A DNA stretch of 64,000 nt from Bacteroidota bacterium (lineage in GTDB: Bacteria; Bacteroidota; Rhodothermia; Rhodothermales; UBA10348), in assembly GCA_029262855.1 (NCBI GenBank), contig JAJCYP010000008.1, forward strand, positions 1 through 64,000. The letters run 5' to 3'. Made by a program: the position numbers and the translations under genes. This document shows positions 8,382 to 29,817 of the stretch, one piece after another (the stretch's first letter is position 1; each line of letters starts with the position of its first letter). Below the pieces are notes generated by a model. It did no database searches, had not been told where the DNA came from, and saw only the letters and a program-made list of their open reading frames with translations.

Positions 8382-9362
8382 TCACACCCGACATCGTACC
8401 ACCGTTCGTCCTTGCTTTCTGCCCTCGAGCAGCGAAACGGCCTCGCCATGGAGATGCTCCAGATCCGTTTCGGTGGCCAACAGGTCAAGCAGGTCCGCGT
8501 CCACCAGATCGGCCAATCGATCCCAGGCGGCCACTCGCATCTCGGCAGGGCACGTATTGCTGTCGATACCCAGAAGCGAAACACCTCGTAGAATGAACGG
8601 GAATACAGTGGTGGACACGTTCGTCCCTCCGGCCAGGCCACACGCCGCAATGGACCCGCGGACCCCGACCTGCGAGATCAACGCCTCCAGCGTCGTGCCC
8701 CCCACGCTGTCGACGGCCCCTCCCCATTTCGCGGAGTCCAACGCACGTCGGGCTCCTCCCCCAAGGTCTGATCGAGGAATAATGGCCCCCGCACCGAGAA
8801 GTCTCAAATACGACGACTCGCCCGATCCGGTGGACGCGACGACCTCGTGCCCGAGCCGGCTGAGAAGTGCAACGGCAAAACTGCCCACACCCCCAGACGC
8901 GCCGGTCACCACGATGGGGCCGGAGGCGATCCCTCCCTTTTCCAGCGCCTGAACCGAGAGCATGGCGGTGAAGCCCGCTGTGCCGATTACCATGGCATCC
9001 CGCATTGAAAGACTGTCGGGGACATGGACGAGATGGTCGCCCAGGAGGCGAGCGTTCGTGGCAAACCCGCCGAAGCGCGTCTCACCCAACCCCCAGCCCG
9101 TCTGAAGAACGCGGTCTCCCTCACGAAAACGATCGTCTCTCGATGCCGTCACTTTCCCGGCCAGATCGATGCCTGGAATGAACGGAAAGTCGCCCCGAAT
9201 GATGGGGCTTCGACCGGTCAGGGCGAGCGCGTCCTTGTAGTTGAGGCTGGACCAATCCAGCCTGACCTCCACATCGCCATCGGGAAGGTGCGACAGCGGT
9301 ATGCGTTCCAGGGAAACGCGAGGATTTTTGCCTTTTTCCTGGACCAGCAGGGCAGTTACCAT
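8382..9362 (-). CDS. YhdH/AcuI-type quinone oxidoreductase-like protein
   Basis: This is a medium-chain dehydrogenase/reductase of the YhdH/AcuI group, whose characterised members reduce acrylyl-CoA to propionyl-CoA with NADPH. From the ATG at 9362 it is 326 residues, the usual family length, and starts MVTALLVQEKG. It shows the catalytic-domain segment LNYKDALALTGR, a PGIDLAG motif and the nucleotide-binding motif TGASGGVGSFAVALL. No zinc-ligand cysteine cluster is visible, as expected for this subgroup. A second possible ATG is at 9386, and longer versions look spurious. The true substrate cannot be told from sequence. Confidence 0.85.
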   Translation of the reverse strand: MVTALLVQEKGKNPRVSLERIPLSHLPDGDVEVRLDWSSLNYKDALALTGRSPIIRGDFPFIPGIDLAGKVTASRDDRFREGDRVLQTGWGLGETRFGGFATNARLLGDHLVHVPDSLSMRDAMVIGTAGFTAMLSVQALEKGGIASGPIVVTGASGGVGSFAVALLSRLGHEVVASTGSGESSYLRLLGAGAIIPRSDLGGGARRALDSAKWGGAVDSVGGTTLEALISQVGVRGSIAACGLAGGTNVSTTVFPFILRGVSLLGIDSNTCPAEMRVAAWDRLADLVDADLLDLLATETDLEHLHGEAVSLLEGRKQGRTVVRCRV

Positions 9363-20416: not shown

Positions 20417-23400
20417 TTGAGCCGAACTTTTCCCCTTTGCCTGACCCTGTTTGTCGTACTCACCGTCGTGGGCTGCAGGGGCCCGGATATCCCTGAACCC
20501 GGAACGGAGGCGTATCTGGAGGCCTCTGGTGCGTTCTACAGCGGGGTAGCGGCCATGCAGATTGGAGACGACCTGAGGGCAAGGGCACGACTCGAACTGG
20601 TCACCGAACTCGTTCCGTCCGAGCAGGCGGCCTGGGCAAACCTGACCCTCTTGGCCCTTCGGCGTGGTGAGATTTCCGAAGCGGCACTCACGGCCGACCG
20701 CGCCTTGAAAGGAACACGCGGTACACCGGAAATCGTCCGGATTGGTGCACTCGCACGACTCGGCGCCGGAGATACGCTCCAGGCCCTCCGTCTGCTCGCC
20801 AGCGACGTGGACGCCCGTCCTGATGTCCGCAACCTGGTAGCCCTGGCTGATATTCTGGCCGCACAAGGCAGGTCCGCCGAGGCGCGCGAGTCGCTGGAGA
20901 CCGCCGCGCGCCTGATGCCCGGCAACGCGGCGCTGACCTACCGGCTGGCTTTGGCCCGTGCCCGCGACGCGAGCGGAGAGCTGGCCAGAGAATGGGCGGC
21001 CGGACTCCTCGAAGCGTCCCCACCGCATCCAAACCCGACGGCGCTGCGGTCGGCGCTGGAAGCCATCGTCCAAGCCCCCGATGACTCCCTGCTGGCGGCC
21101 CTGGAAAGGGCCCGCAATCTGCTGGTGAGGGCCGATTGGTTTCGTCGGGACCTGAACGCGCTTCAGGCTCCCCCCGAGTTGGTGGCCGACCCAGTGCAGC
21201 GCCCCGTGGCACTCAAACCCGTGCTGGACACGGCGGCGCCCGCCGATCGGGAGACCCGGCTGCTCCAGGAACCCATCCCCACCGAGCGACGGGACTGGAC
21301 CTGGGCGGGAGCCCTACATCTCGATGAGGATCCCCTCCCATCCATACTCCTGGCTCGGGGTTCAACCCTTCACTTTCCGGACGAGAGTACCATTGAGCTC
21401 CCGCAGCCCATCGTCAGCCGACGGTCAGTCGCGATTCAGGATTTGGACCAGGACTTTCGGCCCGACCTGGCCATCGCCGGCCCAAACGGGGTTCACATTC
21501 TCTTTCAGACACCTGAGGGATTCAGGACTCGGCCTGGTTCGGTGCCTGCCCTGCCCCCGGCCACGATGATCGAGGCCGTCGATTTTGATATGGAAGGCGA
21601 TCTGGACCTGATCGTAGGGCTACCCGAAGGTGACGCGCTGGTCCTCCGTAACAAGGGTGACGGCACCTTCCAGTTGGACCGTCGTCTGCCGGTCCGCGGT
21701 TTGACGGCCATGACCTGGGGAGACCTGGATGGCGACGGCGACCCCGACCTGACCACGCTAACCCAGGAGGGCGCTCTCACCTTCTGGTCCAATCTCCGGA
21801 ACGGACAGTGGTCAGAACCTGTCCTGATCGCTGAGGGCGTCAGGGGCGTTGCCATGGATGACGTGGATCGGGATGGGACGTTTGATCTCGCCCTTGTCCG
21901 CGCGGGCTCCGCGTGGAGTTATGCTTTGAGAGATGGGCAGTTTTCGGCCAGGGAACTCAGGATCGGGCCCGATTCCGGCTCAGGCTCCGATTCCGGCGCC
22001 GGCATTCCGACAGATGTTGATGGCCTGACGCTGACCGAACTCGACAACAACGGTGCACTGGACTGGGTGGTCTCCACCCCGGATTCCACGGTTGCCTACC
22101 TGGTGGATACGGACGGCGCGCTCGTGCCACTGCCCGCGCTGACCGGCTTCCGTCTGGACGGTATTGCGCCCCTGACAGATTCTGGTCCCCCTGAGTTGTT
22201 CGGACGGCTTGCCTCCGGGCAACCGACCGTCCATTTCGCCGAGGGCACGGCCGGCTATCACTGGAAACGAATTCGCCCCCGGAGCGCAGAAGTCCAGGGG
22301 GATCGCCGCATCAACACGTTTGCGGTGGGTGGCGAAGTCGAACTGAGATCGGGCCTGCTGTTTCAGAAACGGCCCATTTCAGGCGGCATCCTGCACTTCG
22401 GCCTTGGCGACAACCTCCTGACCGAGGTCGCACGCATCGTGTGGCCGAATGGAGACGTTCAGATTGAATTTGATCTCCTTTCGGATGAGACCGTACTGGC
22501 CCAACAGCGGCTCAAGGGCTCCTGTCCGTGGGTATTTGCAAATGACGGTTCGGGGCTCCAGTTCGTGACCGACTTTCTCTGGCGCTCCCCGCTCGGACTC
22601 AAGATCAACGCGCAGGAGACGGCCGGCATCGCGACCACCTCCGATTGGATTCGCATTCCGGGTGCGTCCCTGCCAGCCATTGACGGGCAATACGAACTTC
22701 GGATCACGGCCGAGCTGTGGGAGACTCATTTCTTCGATCACGTCGCGCTGATCGCTGTGGATCACGCCGACCACCTCGACGCACGGGTCGATGAGCGCTT
22801 TGCCTTCCCTCCGCCCGATGATCGCGTCCAGCTTTTCGAGCAATCCAGGCCCTTCGCCCGGGTCATCGATGCGTCCGGATCCCGCGTGGATGCGGCTGCC
22901 CTGGAGCGCGACGGGATCTACGTGGCGGGCTTCCCCCGCGGCCCCTATCAGGGCATCGCCGAAGAACACACCACCGAGTTGCTGCTACCCGAGGAGGCAC
23001 CCGACCGGGTCCACCTGCTGGGCTTTGGCTGGGTCCGTCCAACTGACAGCTCGATCAATGTGGCCATTGGACAGGGCGAGACACCCGCTCCGGTCAGCCT
23101 TCAGCTTGAGATTCCGGCGCAAGACGGGTCCTGGGAAGTGGCCAGGGCCGATCTCGGCTTCCCCTCGGGCAAGGAAAAGACGGTCTTGATTGATTTGTCG
23201 GGGCTGTGGGCACCGGGCGCGGAGCGCCGATTCCGCCTGCGCACCAATCTTGAGATCTACTGGGATCGGCTTCGTTGGGCGGCGCCCGCCGGTTCTGAGC
23301 CCGTCACCCAGCGGCTTGCTCCATCCACGGCCGAGCTGCGATACCGGGGCTTTTCGCGGGTGACGGCCGCGGACTCGCTGTCCCCCGAGATCCCCGAGTA

Positions 23401-23875
23401 CGATGCCTTGCTGGCCACGCACCCCGTCTGGCGAGATCTGGTGGGCTACTACACCCGGTTTGGTGACGTGCGTGCGCTGCTCTCGGATGTCGATGACCGG
23501 TACGTCATCATGAACGCGGGCGACGAGATGCTCCTCCGTTTTGACGCCTTGCCCCCTCCGCCCACCGGCTTCAGTCGCGACTTCGTGCTGGTCGGCGACG
23601 GTTGGGTCAAGGATGGCGATCTCAACACCGCATTTTCCACCACGATTCTCCCGTTGCCCACGCACGCTTCTACGACTTATTCGACGGCTCCATCGAGTCT
23701 GGAAAACGATCCCGTATTCCAGGCACACGCCGGCGATTGGGATCGCTACCACACCCGGTACATAGCCGCTGAGGGTTACCACCGGGCGCTCCGAGTGCCC
23801 GTGTTGGCGGTGCCGGTGCCCGCCCCCGGGCCGCCGACGCAGGCGCCGCCCGTGCCGGAGTTACCCGTCCCCTAA
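20417..23875 (+). CDS. Large lipoprotein with TPR, FG-GAP/VCBS and ASPIC/UnbV-like regions
   Basis: The 1152-residue product starts at a TTG with a lipoprotein signal ending VVGC (Cys20). Residues about 30-270 are TPR-like helical repeats, about 300-600 contain FG-GAP/VCBS-type calcium-binding repeats (DLDQDFRPDLAIAGPNG, DFDMEGDLDLIVGLPEG, DLDGDGDPDLTTL), and about 610-720 match the ASPIC/UnbV pattern (FGLGDNLLTEVARIVWPNG). The last 400 residues are beta-rich, with a proline-rich end. This is the CRTAC1-like family of surface proteins. It follows the two paralogous surface proteins and may be cotranscribed with them. Its stop overlaps that of convergent yraN. Confidence 0.85.
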   Translation: MSRTFPLCLTLFVVLTVVGCRGPDIPEPGTEAYLEASGAFYSGVAAMQIGDDLRARARLELVTELVPSEQAAWANLTLLALRRGEISEAALTADRALKGTRGTPEIVRIGALARLGAGDTLQALRLLASDVDARPDVRNLVALADILAAQGRSAEARESLETAARLMPGNAALTYRLALARARDASGELAREWAAGLLEASPPHPNPTALRSALEAIVQAPDDSLLAALERARNLLVRADWFRRDLNALQAPPELVADPVQRPVALKPVLDTAAPADRETRLLQEPIPTERRDWTWAGALHLDEDPLPSILLARGSTLHFPDESTIELPQPIVSRRSVAIQDLDQDFRPDLAIAGPNGVHILFQTPEGFRTRPGSVPALPPATMIEAVDFDMEGDLDLIVGLPEGDALVLRNKGDGTFQLDRRLPVRGLTAMTWGDLDGDGDPDLTTLTQEGALTFWSNLRNGQWSEPVLIAEGVRGVAMDDVDRDGTFDLALVRAGSAWSYALRDGQFSARELRIGPDSGSGSDSGAGIPTDVDGLTLTELDNNGALDWVVSTPDSTVAYLVDTDGALVPLPALTGFRLDGIAPLTDSGPPELFGRLASGQPTVHFAEGTAGYHWKRIRPRSAEVQGDRRINTFAVGGEVELRSGLLFQKRPISGGILHFGLGDNLLTEVARIVWPNGDVQIEFDLLSDETVLAQQRLKGSCPWVFANDGSGLQFVTDFLWRSPLGLKINAQETAGIATTSDWIRIPGASLPAIDGQYELRITAELWETHFFDHVALIAVDHADHLDARVDERFAFPPPDDRVQLFEQSRPFARVIDASGSRVDAAALERDGIYVAGFPRGPYQGIAEEHTTELLLPEEAPDRVHLLGFGWVRPTDSSINVAIGQGETPAPVSLQLEIPAQDGSWEVARADLGFPSGKEKTVLIDLSGLWAPGAERRFRLRTNLEIYWDRLRWAAPAGSEPVTQRLAPSTAELRYRGFSRVTAADSLSPEIPEYDALLATHPVWRDLVGYYTRFGDVRALLSDVDDRYVIMNAGDEMLLRFDALPPPPTGFSRDFVLVGDGWVKDGDLNTAFSTTILPLPTHASTTYSTAPSSLENDPVFQAHAGDWDRYHTRYIAAEGYHRALRVPVLAVPVPAPGPPTQAPPVPELPVP

Positions 23876-24839: not shown

Positions 24840-24982
24840 GGATGGTCGCGGACATTCGCCGTCTGCAAGACGATCGCCGATCAAACTAGGTTTCCTACAC
24901 AGGATTTTGGATGGAGAGACTCAGCGGGTGATGGGATCTTCACTACCTTTTGCACCCGGCCGGCAGCCCCACCACCCACTCC

Positions 24983-25795
24983 ATGACGCCTCCTTCCGGC
25001 ATCATCACTTTTCTGACAGACTTCGGGACCCGCGACGCCTACGTCGCGGCGATGAAGGGCGTGGCCCTGTCCGTCAATCCGGCGGCAATGCTCGTGGACG
25101 TCAGTCACGACATCCCTCCTCAGGACATCATGCAGGCCGCCTTCGTGCTTCGGGACTGCGCTTCCTGGTTCCCCCCGGGAACCGTGCATCTGTGCGTTGT
25201 CGATCCGGGAGTGGGATCCGAAAGAGCCGCGATTGCCGTTCGAAGCGGCGGGCACTACTTCGTCGGTCCTGACAACGGCCTGTTCTCGTTGGTACTGGGT
25301 ACAGAGCCGGATGAGGCTGTCATTCTGGATAATCCGGACGCCTGGCAGAGGCCGGATGCAAGCACCACGTTTCACGGCCGAGACGTTTTTGCGCCGGTGG
25401 CCGGCCACCTTGCGTCAGGCCGCCCCTTGGCCGAACTGGGCAGCCCGCTTGATCGCCTCACGCCCCTCCATTGGGCGCTTCCGATCCACGATGATCAGGG
25501 CATTCGGGGCTGGGTAGTGCACGTAGACCGATTCGGGAATTGCATCACGAACATCACCGGGGATGAATTCGTGGAGGGGCGATCGCTGCGGCGCTTCAAA
25601 TGCTACGCAGGGACGGTCATTCTGGACCGCCTCAAGACCGCCTACGCCGACGTGGAAGGCGGAGACCCCCTGCTCCTCTTCAACAGTTCAGGTCTTCTGG
25701 AAATCGCGGTATCCCGCGGCAACGCGGCCGAGCTCTACGGACTTCGCACCGGCTCACCCATCAACGTGGTATTTCTAGATGGCCAAGCCGGATAA
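24983..25795 (+). CDS. SAM hydrolase (adenosine-forming, DUF62/fluorinase-like fold)
   Basis: The 270-residue protein belongs to the family that hydrolyses S-adenosylmethionine to adenosine and methionine using a water molecule. The N-terminal FLTDFGTRDAYVAAMKG and the triad Asp74 (VVDPGVGSER), Arg81 and His131 (TFHGRDVFAP) are present, with the Asp-Arg spacing of seven seen in characterised hydrolases. The C-terminal domain has DRFGNCITNI. Its physiological purpose is poorly known in general. It overlaps the next gene by 17 bases, so the two are probably expressed together. Confidence 0.9.
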   Translation: MTPPSGIITFLTDFGTRDAYVAAMKGVALSVNPAAMLVDVSHDIPPQDIMQAAFVLRDCASWFPPGTVHLCVVDPGVGSERAAIAVRSGGHYFVGPDNGLFSLVLGTEPDEAVILDNPDAWQRPDASTTFHGRDVFAPVAGHLASGRPLAELGSPLDRLTPLHWALPIHDDQGIRGWVVHVDRFGNCITNITGDEFVEGRSLRRFKCYAGTVILDRLKTAYADVEGGDPLLLFNSSGLLEIAVSRGNAAELYGLRTGSPINVVFLDGQAG

Positions 25796-26978
25796 GTCTG
25801 CGCGCCCGATTCCGTTTCTGAAAGAAGGCTATGCACTCGCGCAGGTGCTGGCGCCCGATGAGGAGACCGCCGGCCGGTTGACATTGGATGCCTACGCGGT
25901 AACGGCCGGCACCAGCCGGTTCGCCCTGCTCGCGGCCCTGCTCTCGGACACACACCTGCCTACACCGCCGTCCGTGCCGCCGTCCGGTCCTCCGGTACGG
26001 TGGGAGACCACCTCCGGATTCATGACTCCGAGTGTGTCCACGAGTCCTGCCCCCGCCGAAGTGCCGTCGTCGCTGATCGCCGATCGTCTGGCGGCCGAGC
26101 AGAGAGGGCAGGAAATTCTGGGGCGGTTTGCACGGCTCCCTGCCGCAGAACGGGGCGTCGCCTACCTGGGTCTGGTCCGCGGGTTGGCCACTGCTGATCT
26201 GGCCACCCTGTTCCGGGTCTCTCCCGAACACGTAGCAATTTTTCAGGAAGCGGCTGCTCAATCGCTTTTTGGGGATCCGACACGTCCGGGGGATCCTGAG
26301 CTGCTTGCTTCTTCGATGAAGCCTCTCCTGAGCCCTCCGGGAGATACCCTCAGAAAGTCGGTACGCGCCGCAATGACGGCCGCTCTGAAGGGATCGCATA
26401 GCGAGTTGGCGCGTCCGGCCCCCCGGGGTCGCCTGCTGCCGGTTCTGGGGATCCTGATGCTGAGCGTGATCGCTGCTCTGGCAGTGACGCGCCTTTTCCC
26501 GCGCTCCTCCGCCGGCCCCCCTGTTCAGGAGGCGGCGGATGCGCTGGAGGCGGCCGCCACCCAGTTGCCGCTCGAGCGTCACCAGATCACGTCCTCCGAC
26601 CCGCTTGAGATCGAGGCCTGGATGAATCAGCGGATTCCCTGGCGCTTCACAGTACCCACCGTTGAGTCCCTCCCCCTGGCCGGTGCAGGTCTTACGCGGC
26701 TCGTCTCAGGGGTTCGGATTCCGATCCTATTCTACGGCTCGCGCGAGACTGATCTCTCCATTGGCGTGATGAATTATGCCATCCTGCAGGCCTCGTCTGA
26801 CCGTCTCATGCTGGACCGGCCCACCATCGACCGGTTGGCCTCCGGTGAAACGCCCGTCCTACGTACCATCGATGGCCATTCGGTATTGGCCATGCGGCAC
26901 CGCGACGACATCTACCTGGCCGTTTCCCGGGAGATCGATGTGGCGCTGCCTTCGAGGATCACCTTCGGCACCGAGTAG
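25779..26978 (+). CDS. Membrane protein with sigma-like N-terminus and anti-sigma-like outer domain
   Basis: I see three parts in these 399 residues. Residues 11-60 (EGYALAQVLAPDEETAGRL) look like a degenerate sigma region 2, and 115-160 (RLPAAERGVAYLGLVRG, then LATLFRVSPEHVAIFQEA) resembles sigma region 4 including the helix-turn-helix. A single membrane helix lies at about 219-240. The remaining 155 residues follow the pattern of extracytoplasmic domains of some anti-sigma factors (TSSDPLEIEAWMNQRIPW, then LILFYG-like strands). It may be a membrane-tethered regulator, but the sigma likeness is by eye. It overlaps the SAM hydrolase gene and has no obvious separate promoter. Confidence 0.6.
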   Translation: MAKPDKSARPIPFLKEGYALAQVLAPDEETAGRLTLDAYAVTAGTSRFALLAALLSDTHLPTPPSVPPSGPPVRWETTSGFMTPSVSTSPAPAEVPSSLIADRLAAEQRGQEILGRFARLPAAERGVAYLGLVRGLATADLATLFRVSPEHVAIFQEAAAQSLFGDPTRPGDPELLASSMKPLLSPPGDTLRKSVRAAMTAALKGSHSELARPAPRGRLLPVLGILMLSVIAALAVTRLFPRSSAGPPVQEAADALEAAATQLPLERHQITSSDPLEIEAWMNQRIPWRFTVPTVESLPLAGAGLTRLVSGVRIPILFYGSRETDLSIGVMNYAILQASSDRLMLDRPTIDRLASGETPVLRTIDGHSVLAMRHRDDIYLAVSREIDVALPSRITFGTE

Positions 26979-27012: not shown

Positions 27013-27068
27013 TGGGTCAGGCTACGGCCACTGGGTCAGGCGCGGCCACTGGGTCAGGCTACGGCCAC
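27013..27068 (+). repeat. Three tandem 18-19-base repeats at the 3' end of the kinase gene
   Basis: Copies are at 27013-27031, 27032-27049 and 27050-27068, each reading TGGGTCAGGCxxCGGCCAC with small differences. The third copy contains the last codons and stop (TGA) of the histidine kinase on the minus strand; the first two therefore look like duplications of the gene's end into the spacer. Confidence 0.85.
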
Positions 27069-28445
27069 CTCGATGCGGAAGGTGGAGCCCTCACCGGGTC
27101 GCGATGCCAACAGCTCAAGCGACCCGCCATGGTAATCCTCCACGATCCGCTTCGCGAGACTGAGCCCCAGACCCCAGCCTCGTTTTTTGGTACTGTAGCC
27201 AGGCTTGAACACATGCTTCGCATCACGCCGGTCGATGCCTTTTCCGGAATCTGAGACGTCAATTCTGATGCGATCCTCGAACCGACGCGCCAACACCTCG
27301 ATCGACCCATCAGGCGCGTCAATGGCGTCCAGTGCGTTCTTGATCATGTTCTCGATCACCCACTCGAACAACTCGGGATTGAGGTTCGCGTTGAGTCCTT
27401 CAGGGACTTCCGAGGTCAGCGTGATCTTGCGGCCCTGCGTGGGCAGTCTCTGGCGCATATACGTCACGATGGTATCGACGACCGGCTTCACCGGCTGGAC
27501 CTCCAGGCGCGGCAGGGATCCGATGTCGGAGAACCTTGCAGTGACCCGTTCCAAGCGGGCGATGTCCTTCTCGATTTCGCCCAGCGCGGCCCGCTCCCGC
27601 ATGGGTTCGGAATCGGGCATTCGGAGCACCGCCAGCCAGCCCATCAGGCTCGAGATGGGCGTGCCCAGCTGGTGCGCGGCTTCCTTGGCCATACCGACCC
27701 AGAGACTGGTTTGCTCGCTGCGGCGCACGTAGGAGAACGTGAGGTAGCCGATCAGTACGAATAGGGCAACGAATATGAGTTGCACAAACGGAAACCGCCT
27801 CAGGTCCTGGACCAGCTCCGACTCGCCGTAGAGCATGTACTGAACAAACCGGTCCGGCGGTCCACCGTCGAGTGACGGATACGTCAGGTCGATGAGGATG
27901 GGCTCGTGTTGCCCCAGCATGCTCTCCTGAAGCCGTCGAAGTTTAGCGACCGTTCTTGCCGAGTCGGCCCCCGTGAGCCCGGCCAGTGATTCGACTTCAA
28001 TCGGGACGTTCTGCCAGATCACCGGCGTCGTCTTGGTTGAGTCCACGAGAATGGCCGGTATCCCAAACGCATTCGGCTCGAGAAACGCATCCTGGATGAA
28101 GGTCAGGTCGCTGGCTGGAGGCATCCCCATCGCCCAGACCACGGCCCTCCTCAGGTTCGCGAGCTCAGTCGCAGAGAGTGGAATTCCATTGCCGTCGCTC
28201 AGCGTTCCGGCCTGAAGAAACTGATCCAACTCCCTCAGTTCCGGGAGGTACGGATTGTTCGATCCCTGCGCGGCTGCCTTCGGGATCTGCGCGAGCGCCG
28301 TGGCCCAGAGCTGGATGATGGACTGCTCGCGCTCGCGAAGTTGCTCGGCGAGGGAATTCGTGTACCAGAGGGACGCAATTGCGATGCCCCCCGCGAACAC
28401 CACCAGTCCCAACTTCAGGTTTACCGAAAGTCTGTACGCCTTCAT
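27054..28445 (-). CDS. Membrane sensor histidine kinase
   Basis: The 463-residue protein has two membrane helices (about 11-29 and 219-239) enclosing a periplasmic sensor domain of about 190 residues, then a cytoplasmic kinase: His258 in AAHQLGTPISSLMG, N-box ENMIKNALDAI, G1 box DSGKGID and G2 box GWGLGLSLAKRI. It would autophosphorylate and pass phosphate to a response regulator. No response regulator gene is in the window, so its partner is elsewhere. The gene follows purA on the same strand after 79 bases. The GTP rather than RTP after the His is common in some kinase subfamilies. Confidence 0.93.
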   Translation of the reverse strand: MKAYRLSVNLKLGLVVFAGGIAIASLWYTNSLAEQLREREQSIIQLWATALAQIPKAAAQGSNNPYLPELRELDQFLQAGTLSDGNGIPLSATELANLRRAVVWAMGMPPASDLTFIQDAFLEPNAFGIPAILVDSTKTTPVIWQNVPIEVESLAGLTGADSARTVAKLRRLQESMLGQHEPILIDLTYPSLDGGPPDRFVQYMLYGESELVQDLRRFPFVQLIFVALFVLIGYLTFSYVRRSEQTSLWVGMAKEAAHQLGTPISSLMGWLAVLRMPDSEPMRERAALGEIEKDIARLERVTARFSDIGSLPRLEVQPVKPVVDTIVTYMRQRLPTQGRKITLTSEVPEGLNANLNPELFEWVIENMIKNALDAIDAPDGSIEVLARRFEDRIRIDVSDSGKGIDRRDAKHVFKPGYSTKKRGWGLGLSLAKRIVEDYHGGSLELLASRPGEGSTFRIEVAVA

Positions 28446-28524: not shown

Positions 28525-29817
28525 TCAGGCTGCGACTCCGTCTACTGCGATGGTTTGCGAACGCTTTGGACCCGTAGAAACGTACGAAATCGGCACGTTC
28601 AGGTTTTTTGATACGAAGTCGAGATAGGAGCGTGCGGCCTCAGGCAGCCCATCCAGTGTCTCCACTTGCGTCAGATTCTCACTCCATCCGGGTAGCGTCT
28701 CGTACAGCGGAGACGCCTTCTTGAGTCCCTCCAGGTGGCTGGGGAAACGGGTCGTAACCTTGCCACCCTCGACCTCGTAGCGCGTGGCCGCGCGCACCTG
28801 ATCGAGGCCAGACATGACGTCCAACTTGGTGATCGCGAGCTCTGTGAATCCGTTGATCCGGCTTGTGTAATTGAGCGCAACCAGGTCCAGCCATCCGCAC
28901 CGACGCGGACGTCCTGTGGTAGCTCCGTACTCATGCCCGATGTCCCGCAGATGCTGGCCAACTTCGTCGTCCAGCTCCGTGGGGAACGGCCCATTTCCGA
29001 CACGCGTCGTGTAGGCTTTGACGATGGCGATTATTCGGTTGATGGCTGTCGGAGGAATACCCAGACCCGTGCAGGCCCCGCCTGCGGTGGGGTGACTCGA
29101 TGTCACGAACGGATAGGTACCGAAGTCCACATCGAGCAATGAGCCCTGAGCGCCTTCGGCCAGGATTTCCTTCCCGTCTGCGAGCGCCTCTCCCAGGAGG
29201 GCCGTGGTGTCGGTGACAAAGGGATCGATCAGCTTGTCAAACTCGACGTACTCCTCCACGATGGCTTCAACGTCGAGCTCTTCCTCCTTGTAGACCTCTC
29301 GCAGGATGGCATTCTTCTCCTCGATGTTGAGTCGCAGCTTCTTGCGAAGCACGTCCCGATCCAGAAGATCCACCACGCGGATGCCCGTGCGGGCGAACTT
29401 GTCCACGTAGGCCGGGCCAATGCCCCGCCCCGTCGTCCCGATTGCCCCGGCATCCCGCGCCCGCTCACGCACCTCTTCGATGCGCTTGTGGTACGGCATG
29501 ATCAAATGCGCGTTGTGGGATATGAAGAGCCTGCCGGCCACGTCTATCCCCAACTTCCGGATCATGCGGATCTCTTCCATCAGGGCCACGGGGTCAATCA
29601 CGACACCGTTGCCGATCACGCACTGCGTGCCCTCATGAAAGATGCCGCTGGGCACCAGGTGAAGAACATGGGTCTCGTCGCCAATGCAGATGGTATGTCC
29701 AGCGTTGGCGCCGCCCTGATAGCGGGCCACGATGTCCACCTGCGCGGAAAGCAGGTCGACAATCTTGCCTTTTCCCTCGTCTCCCCACTGGCTCCCGATT
29801 ACTACGGTTACGGGCAT
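28525..29817 (-). CDS. purA: Adenylosuccinate synthetase
   Basis: This enzyme makes adenylosuccinate from IMP, aspartate and GTP, the first committed step to AMP. The 430-residue protein begins with the GTP-binding motif SQWGDEGKGK, followed by GGANAGHT and later TTGRPRRCGW, all family signatures, and is normal length. It lies between the STAS gene and the histidine kinase on the same strand; a terminator-like hairpin separates it from the STAS gene upstream, so it probably has its own promoter in 29818-29880. Confidence 0.97.
   Translation of the reverse strand: MPVTVVIGSQWGDEGKGKIVDLLSAQVDIVARYQGGANAGHTICIGDETHVLHLVPSGIFHEGTQCVIGNGVVIDPVALMEEIRMIRKLGIDVAGRLFISHNAHLIMPYHKRIEEVRERARDAGAIGTTGRGIGPAYVDKFARTGIRVVDLLDRDVLRKKLRLNIEEKNAILREVYKEEELDVEAIVEEYVEFDKLIDPFVTDTTALLGEALADGKEILAEGAQGSLLDVDFGTYPFVTSSHPTAGGACTGLGIPPTAINRIIAIVKAYTTRVGNGPFPTELDDEVGQHLRDIGHEYGATTGRPRRCGWLDLVALNYTSRINGFTELAITKLDVMSGLDQVRAATRYEVEGGKVTTRFPSHLEGLKKASPLYETLPGWSENLTQVETLDGLPEAARSYLDFVSKNLNVPISYVSTGPKRSQTIAVDGVAA

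Follow-up and report, generated by a model that had tools for sequence, protein, structure and literature searches.

Fusions of an ECF sigma factor with an anti-sigma factor have been described for IutY (ECF243), ECF48, ECF52 and ECF53, and IutY and ECF52 are precedents for tethered fusions (PMC8999054). The decoy principle has its precedent in PhyR of the alphaproteobacterial general stress response (PMC8103513). Known already are sigma decoys as soluble response regulators and sigma/anti-sigma fusions as tethered active sigma factors. The family described here unites a decayed sigma factor with the membrane sensor of an anti-sigma factor in one conserved gene.

The gene is positioned at 25779-26978 on the forward strand of the window, by which we mean the whole stretch of 64,000 nucleotides that was analysed. 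It starts with ATG and encodes 399 amino acids, and this start is conserved within the genus (MAKPDK, MAKNDA and MAKRDN). The original prediction placed sigma region 2- and 4-like parts, one membrane helix and an outer domain in a single 399-residue chain, and the structure model of the window protein (mean pLDDT 77.5, pTM 0.45) matched this order. Region 2-like helices (residues ~12-58, 25812..25952; modelled as H14-24, H28-42 and H47-55) are followed by a disordered linker rich in proline and serine (residues ~59-96, 25953..26066; pLDDT <50 at 64-92) and by region 4-like helices (residues ~97-165, 26067..26273; modelled at 97-164) from which the recognition-helix residues are gone. Two modelled juxtamembrane helices with no detectable anti-sigma domain (residues ~173-205, 26295..26393) lead into the single transmembrane (TM) helix (residues ~219-239, 26433..26495), supported by the sequence and by the modelled helix H219-239. 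The periplasmic domain (residues ~250-399, 26526..26975) is modelled as a mixed alpha/beta fold at 255-393. All these segments lie on the forward strand.

We found a match to the 399-aa protein in 48 of 60 related genomes, and these orthologues, together with a fixed neighbourhood, establish that this is a genuine gene. Named records, including Rhodothermus species and Roseithermus sacchariphilus, locate the family in Rhodothermales. In the fetched loci with sufficient flank, on which synteny was judged, the conserved order is YraN, an HTH gene (in most), SAM hydroxide adenosyltransferase (SAM-HAT), the fusion gene, a convergent kinase, PurA, STAS and SecF. The end of the SAM-HAT gene (24950..25795, forward strand; PF01887 1.7e-59, PF20257 3.1e-24) and the start of the fusion gene share a 17 nt overlap. 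Downstream, on the reverse strand, are a sensor histidine kinase-like gene (27054..28445) and the adenylosuccinate synthetase gene PurA (28525..29817), both of them syntenic. The fusion protein is fast-evolving, with ~36% identity to its counterpart in the genus mate G001; the proteins of the syntenic block around it, YraN through SecF, have 72-92% identity between the same two genomes. Further upstream in the window, 20417-23875 encodes a 1152-aa protein which, among the fetched loci, was seen at this locus in the same genus only (G001 and G002).

Some orthologues showed irregularities. The reading frame is broken close to C-rich runs in R. sacchariphilus (L071, ~8500-8760) and in G048 (L056, ~8550-9100), in each case after the sigma-like part and before the periplasmic domain. 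These are probably sequencing or assembly indels, although the shifts might be real, given that two genomes show them independently at comparable positions. A same-genus orthologue (L031, 8339-9667) carries a degenerate DAATSSPSE-type repeat run that separates its region 2-like part from its region 4-like part.

Searched alone, the window protein gave no match in Pfam or NCBIfam and no convincing match in a PDB sequence search, so the sigma likeness was not resolvable from such searches with this one sequence. A contig scan with this single protein likewise returned no relatives, while a profile query succeeded. The N-terminus of orthologue L058 matched PhyR_sigma2 (PF22029, 1.8e-7) in the region 2-like part and Sigma70_r4_2 (PF08281, 1.3e-6) in the region 4-like part, both above the Pfam cut-offs; its best NCBIfam match was the PhyR family (2.4e-13, far below the curated cut-off of the model). 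A profile of 12 orthologues (A1) aligned with Mycobacterium tuberculosis SigE at 1.9e-11 across regions 2 and 4. With a profile built from 20 intact ECF sigma factors, residues 1-170 of the window protein scored 13.7 bits, a score reached by 0 of 2000 shuffles (top reported 6.7), and residues 170-399 scored -1.9. In the model, the N-terminal fold (residues 3-169) matches sigma factors bound by anti-sigma factors: SigW with RsiW (Z 8.5, 115 aligned, 4.1 A), RpoE with NepR (Z 8.6, 120 aligned, 3.9 A) and PhyR with NepR (Z 8.0). The structure model of the orthologue concurs on the sigma fold. Since these Z values are moderate, the weight rests on the sequence profiles. Profiles and model agree that regions 2 and 4 are present in ECF order, and the sigma fold expected in residues 1-165 is thus there.

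Next to this stands the membrane half. Outside the order, a search with the periplasmic domain as a profile (A4) gave one homologue each in many genomes of the class and phylum (8e-29 to 2e-4), several of them canonical anti-sigma factors. The zinc-binding zf-HC2 domain scored above its cut-off in the three homologues tested (L104, L116 and L117), and an ECF gene lies directly upstream of the homologue in L103, L104 and L115-L118. The ECF adjoining L104 scored 193.8 bits to SigH_actino, below the family cut-off of 251.55. In hhalign, the fusions and the homologous anti-sigma set aligned over 229 columns (6.5e-25) covering the TM and periplasmic parts. The fusion therefore shares its TM helix and periplasmic domain with zf-HC2 membrane anti-sigma factors. 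The proposal of a degenerate sigma factor joined to the outer part of an anti-sigma factor holds for both halves, by profile homology and predicted fold, and the C-terminal part turned out to be related to anti-sigma factors rather than to have an unrelated fold. The C-terminal domain of RseB/MucB also has some likeness in fold to the modelled periplasmic domain (Z 7.6, 94 aligned, 3.2 A; no sequence match); this is suggestive only, as a Z below 8 can reflect a common arrangement.

The zf-HC2 domain was found neither in the window protein nor in the fused orthologues. We also considered an anti-sigma domain retained in the linker, but the hhalign probability was 12.8% and the profile scores were within the shuffle range, so this is unsupported. 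A receiver domain gave no match in the window protein or its orthologues, whose C-terminus consists of the TM and periplasmic domain.

Two further arrangements were seen among the homologues. Those of L103, L104 and L115-L118 are membrane-anchored RsrA-like anti-sigma factors paired with a SigH-like ECF; characterised RsrA is soluble. In other class relatives (L105-L111, L113 and L119-L121) the homologue stands alone, with an anti-sigma-like N-terminus lacking the zinc cysteines and no ECF gene directly upstream, and these are apparently orphan anti-sigma factors.

We counted functional residues of the sigma-like part in 15 better-aligned fusions, using only the rows aligned at each column. 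Six of the 15, the window protein included, do not align in region 2, so the losses there are counted on <=9 rows. D81 and Q84 of region 2.2 are kept in 2/9 and 1/9 fusions, and N113 in 0/5. In region 4.2, T198 is kept in 4/12 and S201 in 0/10. In the cognate ECFs, those next to L103, L104 and L115-L118, each of the five residues is found in 6/6. Within region 4 the window protein has EHVAIFQEA opposite GTVRSRLHR. The structural residues L167, R172 and L177 are kept in 14/15 fusions. As read from this alignment, the residues with which ECFs bind core, melt DNA and contact the -35 element are mostly gone and the fold positions remain. This makes an active sigma factor released by cleavage unlikely.

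Many fused orthologues (L038, L039, L044, L045, L058 and L061) have gained a cysteine (LSC) in the region 4-like part, shortly past a conserved LC. The two cysteines may possibly form a redox pair.

The best scores against the profile of the fused sigma part are those of the six cognate ECFs (40.8-51.1 bits), and the 14 ECFs found in the genome of the window all score <= 37.2 bits. No standalone SigH-type ECF above the family cut-off was found in the 60 genomes of the order (best about 106 bits, compared with 193.8 for the ECF adjoining L104). Most likely, the fusion gene is a joined sigma/anti-sigma pair at one fixed locus, and the simplest account is that the pair fused in the ancestor of Rhodothermales. 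There, a SigH/SigR-like ECF gene and the neighbouring gene for a membrane zf-HC2 anti-sigma factor would have become one gene. The sigma half would then have shed most residues that bind RNA polymerase and the promoter and retained its fold, an order of events that we infer. Relatives preserve the steps: the separate pair, the fusion, the loss of sigma contacts and the loss of the sigma part.

Our best reading is that the product is a membrane-tethered sigma mimic and not a working sigma factor. That fusion and decay led to such a mimic which binds a protein is, in our estimate, an evenly balanced proposition. The periplasmic domain would receive a signal and the cytoplasmic sigma-like domain would bind a protein partner, acting either from the membrane or following proteolysis. 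The most plausible partner would be an anti-sigma domain belonging to a different ECF pair, in the way that PhyR binds NepR, and four zf-HC2 matches above the cut-off in the window's own genome are candidate targets. Our preference among the possible roles is a sigma decoy. More specifically, it might be an anti-anti-sigma factor of the PhyR kind that is anchored in the membrane, with the periplasmic sensor controlling how available it is to anti-sigma factors, a role that we propose tentatively. Equally tentative is the idea that such a decoy arose when a sigma factor was joined to the membrane half of its cognate anti-sigma factor. Our literature search on Rhodothermus ECF systems found nothing relevant. 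A sigma mimic of this kind would show how a transcription factor can come to serve in signalling or binding, and the cultured genus Rhodothermus offers a test case.

The main rival is that the sigma-like domain is a relic in the course of erosion, and that the protein works through its TM and periplasmic domain in a role outside transcription, perhaps connected with SAM-HAT or with the cell envelope. We mapped the sigma-like part on a family tree built from five syntenic proteins, in which deep nodes are poorly supported. The sigma part is absent in the sister families f9 and f12 (support 1.0) and in f14 (sister to Rhodothermus, 0.998), and in f4 all that is left of it, by visual inspection, is a stretch resembling region 4; all of them keep the TM and periplasmic parts. 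The sigma part is therefore dispensable in some lineages. The genomes sampled from f15 gave no match whatever. In most pairs the N-terminus has also changed more quickly than the periplasmic part. However, ten sampled families retain the sigma-like part together with the residues of its fold core. Most Rhodothermus pairs, and likewise the L081/L082/G016 group, give a dN/dS (omega) of 0.11-0.15 for the sigma-like part, so it is constrained by purifying selection in those lineages; the exceptions are one nearly identical Rhodothermus pair (0.35) and one f11 pair (0.45). In the window's genus the omega values are unreliable, since synonymous sites are near saturation. The sigma-like part is thus useful in many lineages and inessential to the order, and we regard a mere relic as possible but rather doubtful.

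Another explanation is an anti-sigma factor whose zinc-binding domain was replaced by a sigma-like bundle, and which inhibits a sigma factor or binds the polymerase directly. The outer half does belong to an anti-sigma factor and an anti-sigma domain is undetectable in the linker. Nevertheless, the N-terminal helices match sigma factors rather than anti-sigma domains, and this analysis turned up no known example of a sigma factor being inhibited by a sigma fold, which makes this explanation improbable. A further possibility is a functional ECF sigma factor that is tethered to the membrane and becomes active through regulated proteolysis, as in the case of IutY from Pseudomonas putida. It would fit the order of parts in ECF243 (IutY), ECF48, ECF52 and ECF53 (PMC8999054), but we set it aside as very unlikely since most alignable orthologues have lost the conserved residues of regions 2.2 and 2.3/2.4 and of the recognition helix in region 4.

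The proposed membrane-tethered sigma mimic can be compared with four kinds of known systems. SigH/SigR-type ECFs with a membrane zf-HC2 (RsrA-like) anti-sigma factor, found in the same class and phylum, are the likely parents of the fusion; they differ in being two separate genes elsewhere in the genome, with an intact sigma factor and a zinc-binding anti-sigma domain. RseB/MucB is a separate periplasmic protein, and its likeness to the outer domain of the fusion is by fold alone. IutY, ECF48, ECF52 and ECF53 share the N-terminal ECF sigma part, the TM helix and the outer part in one chain, but their sigma part is active or expected to be so, whereas the fusion described here has lost most of the residues on which sigma function depends. 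Moreover, ECF48, ECF52 and ECF53 carry a zinc-finger anti-sigma part, and none is detectable in the Rhodothermales fusion. PhyR has a similarly degenerate ECF fold that lost its promoter and core contacts. Unlike the fusion, PhyR has a receiver domain, and the place of that domain is taken in Rhodothermales by the TM helix and the periplasmic domain.
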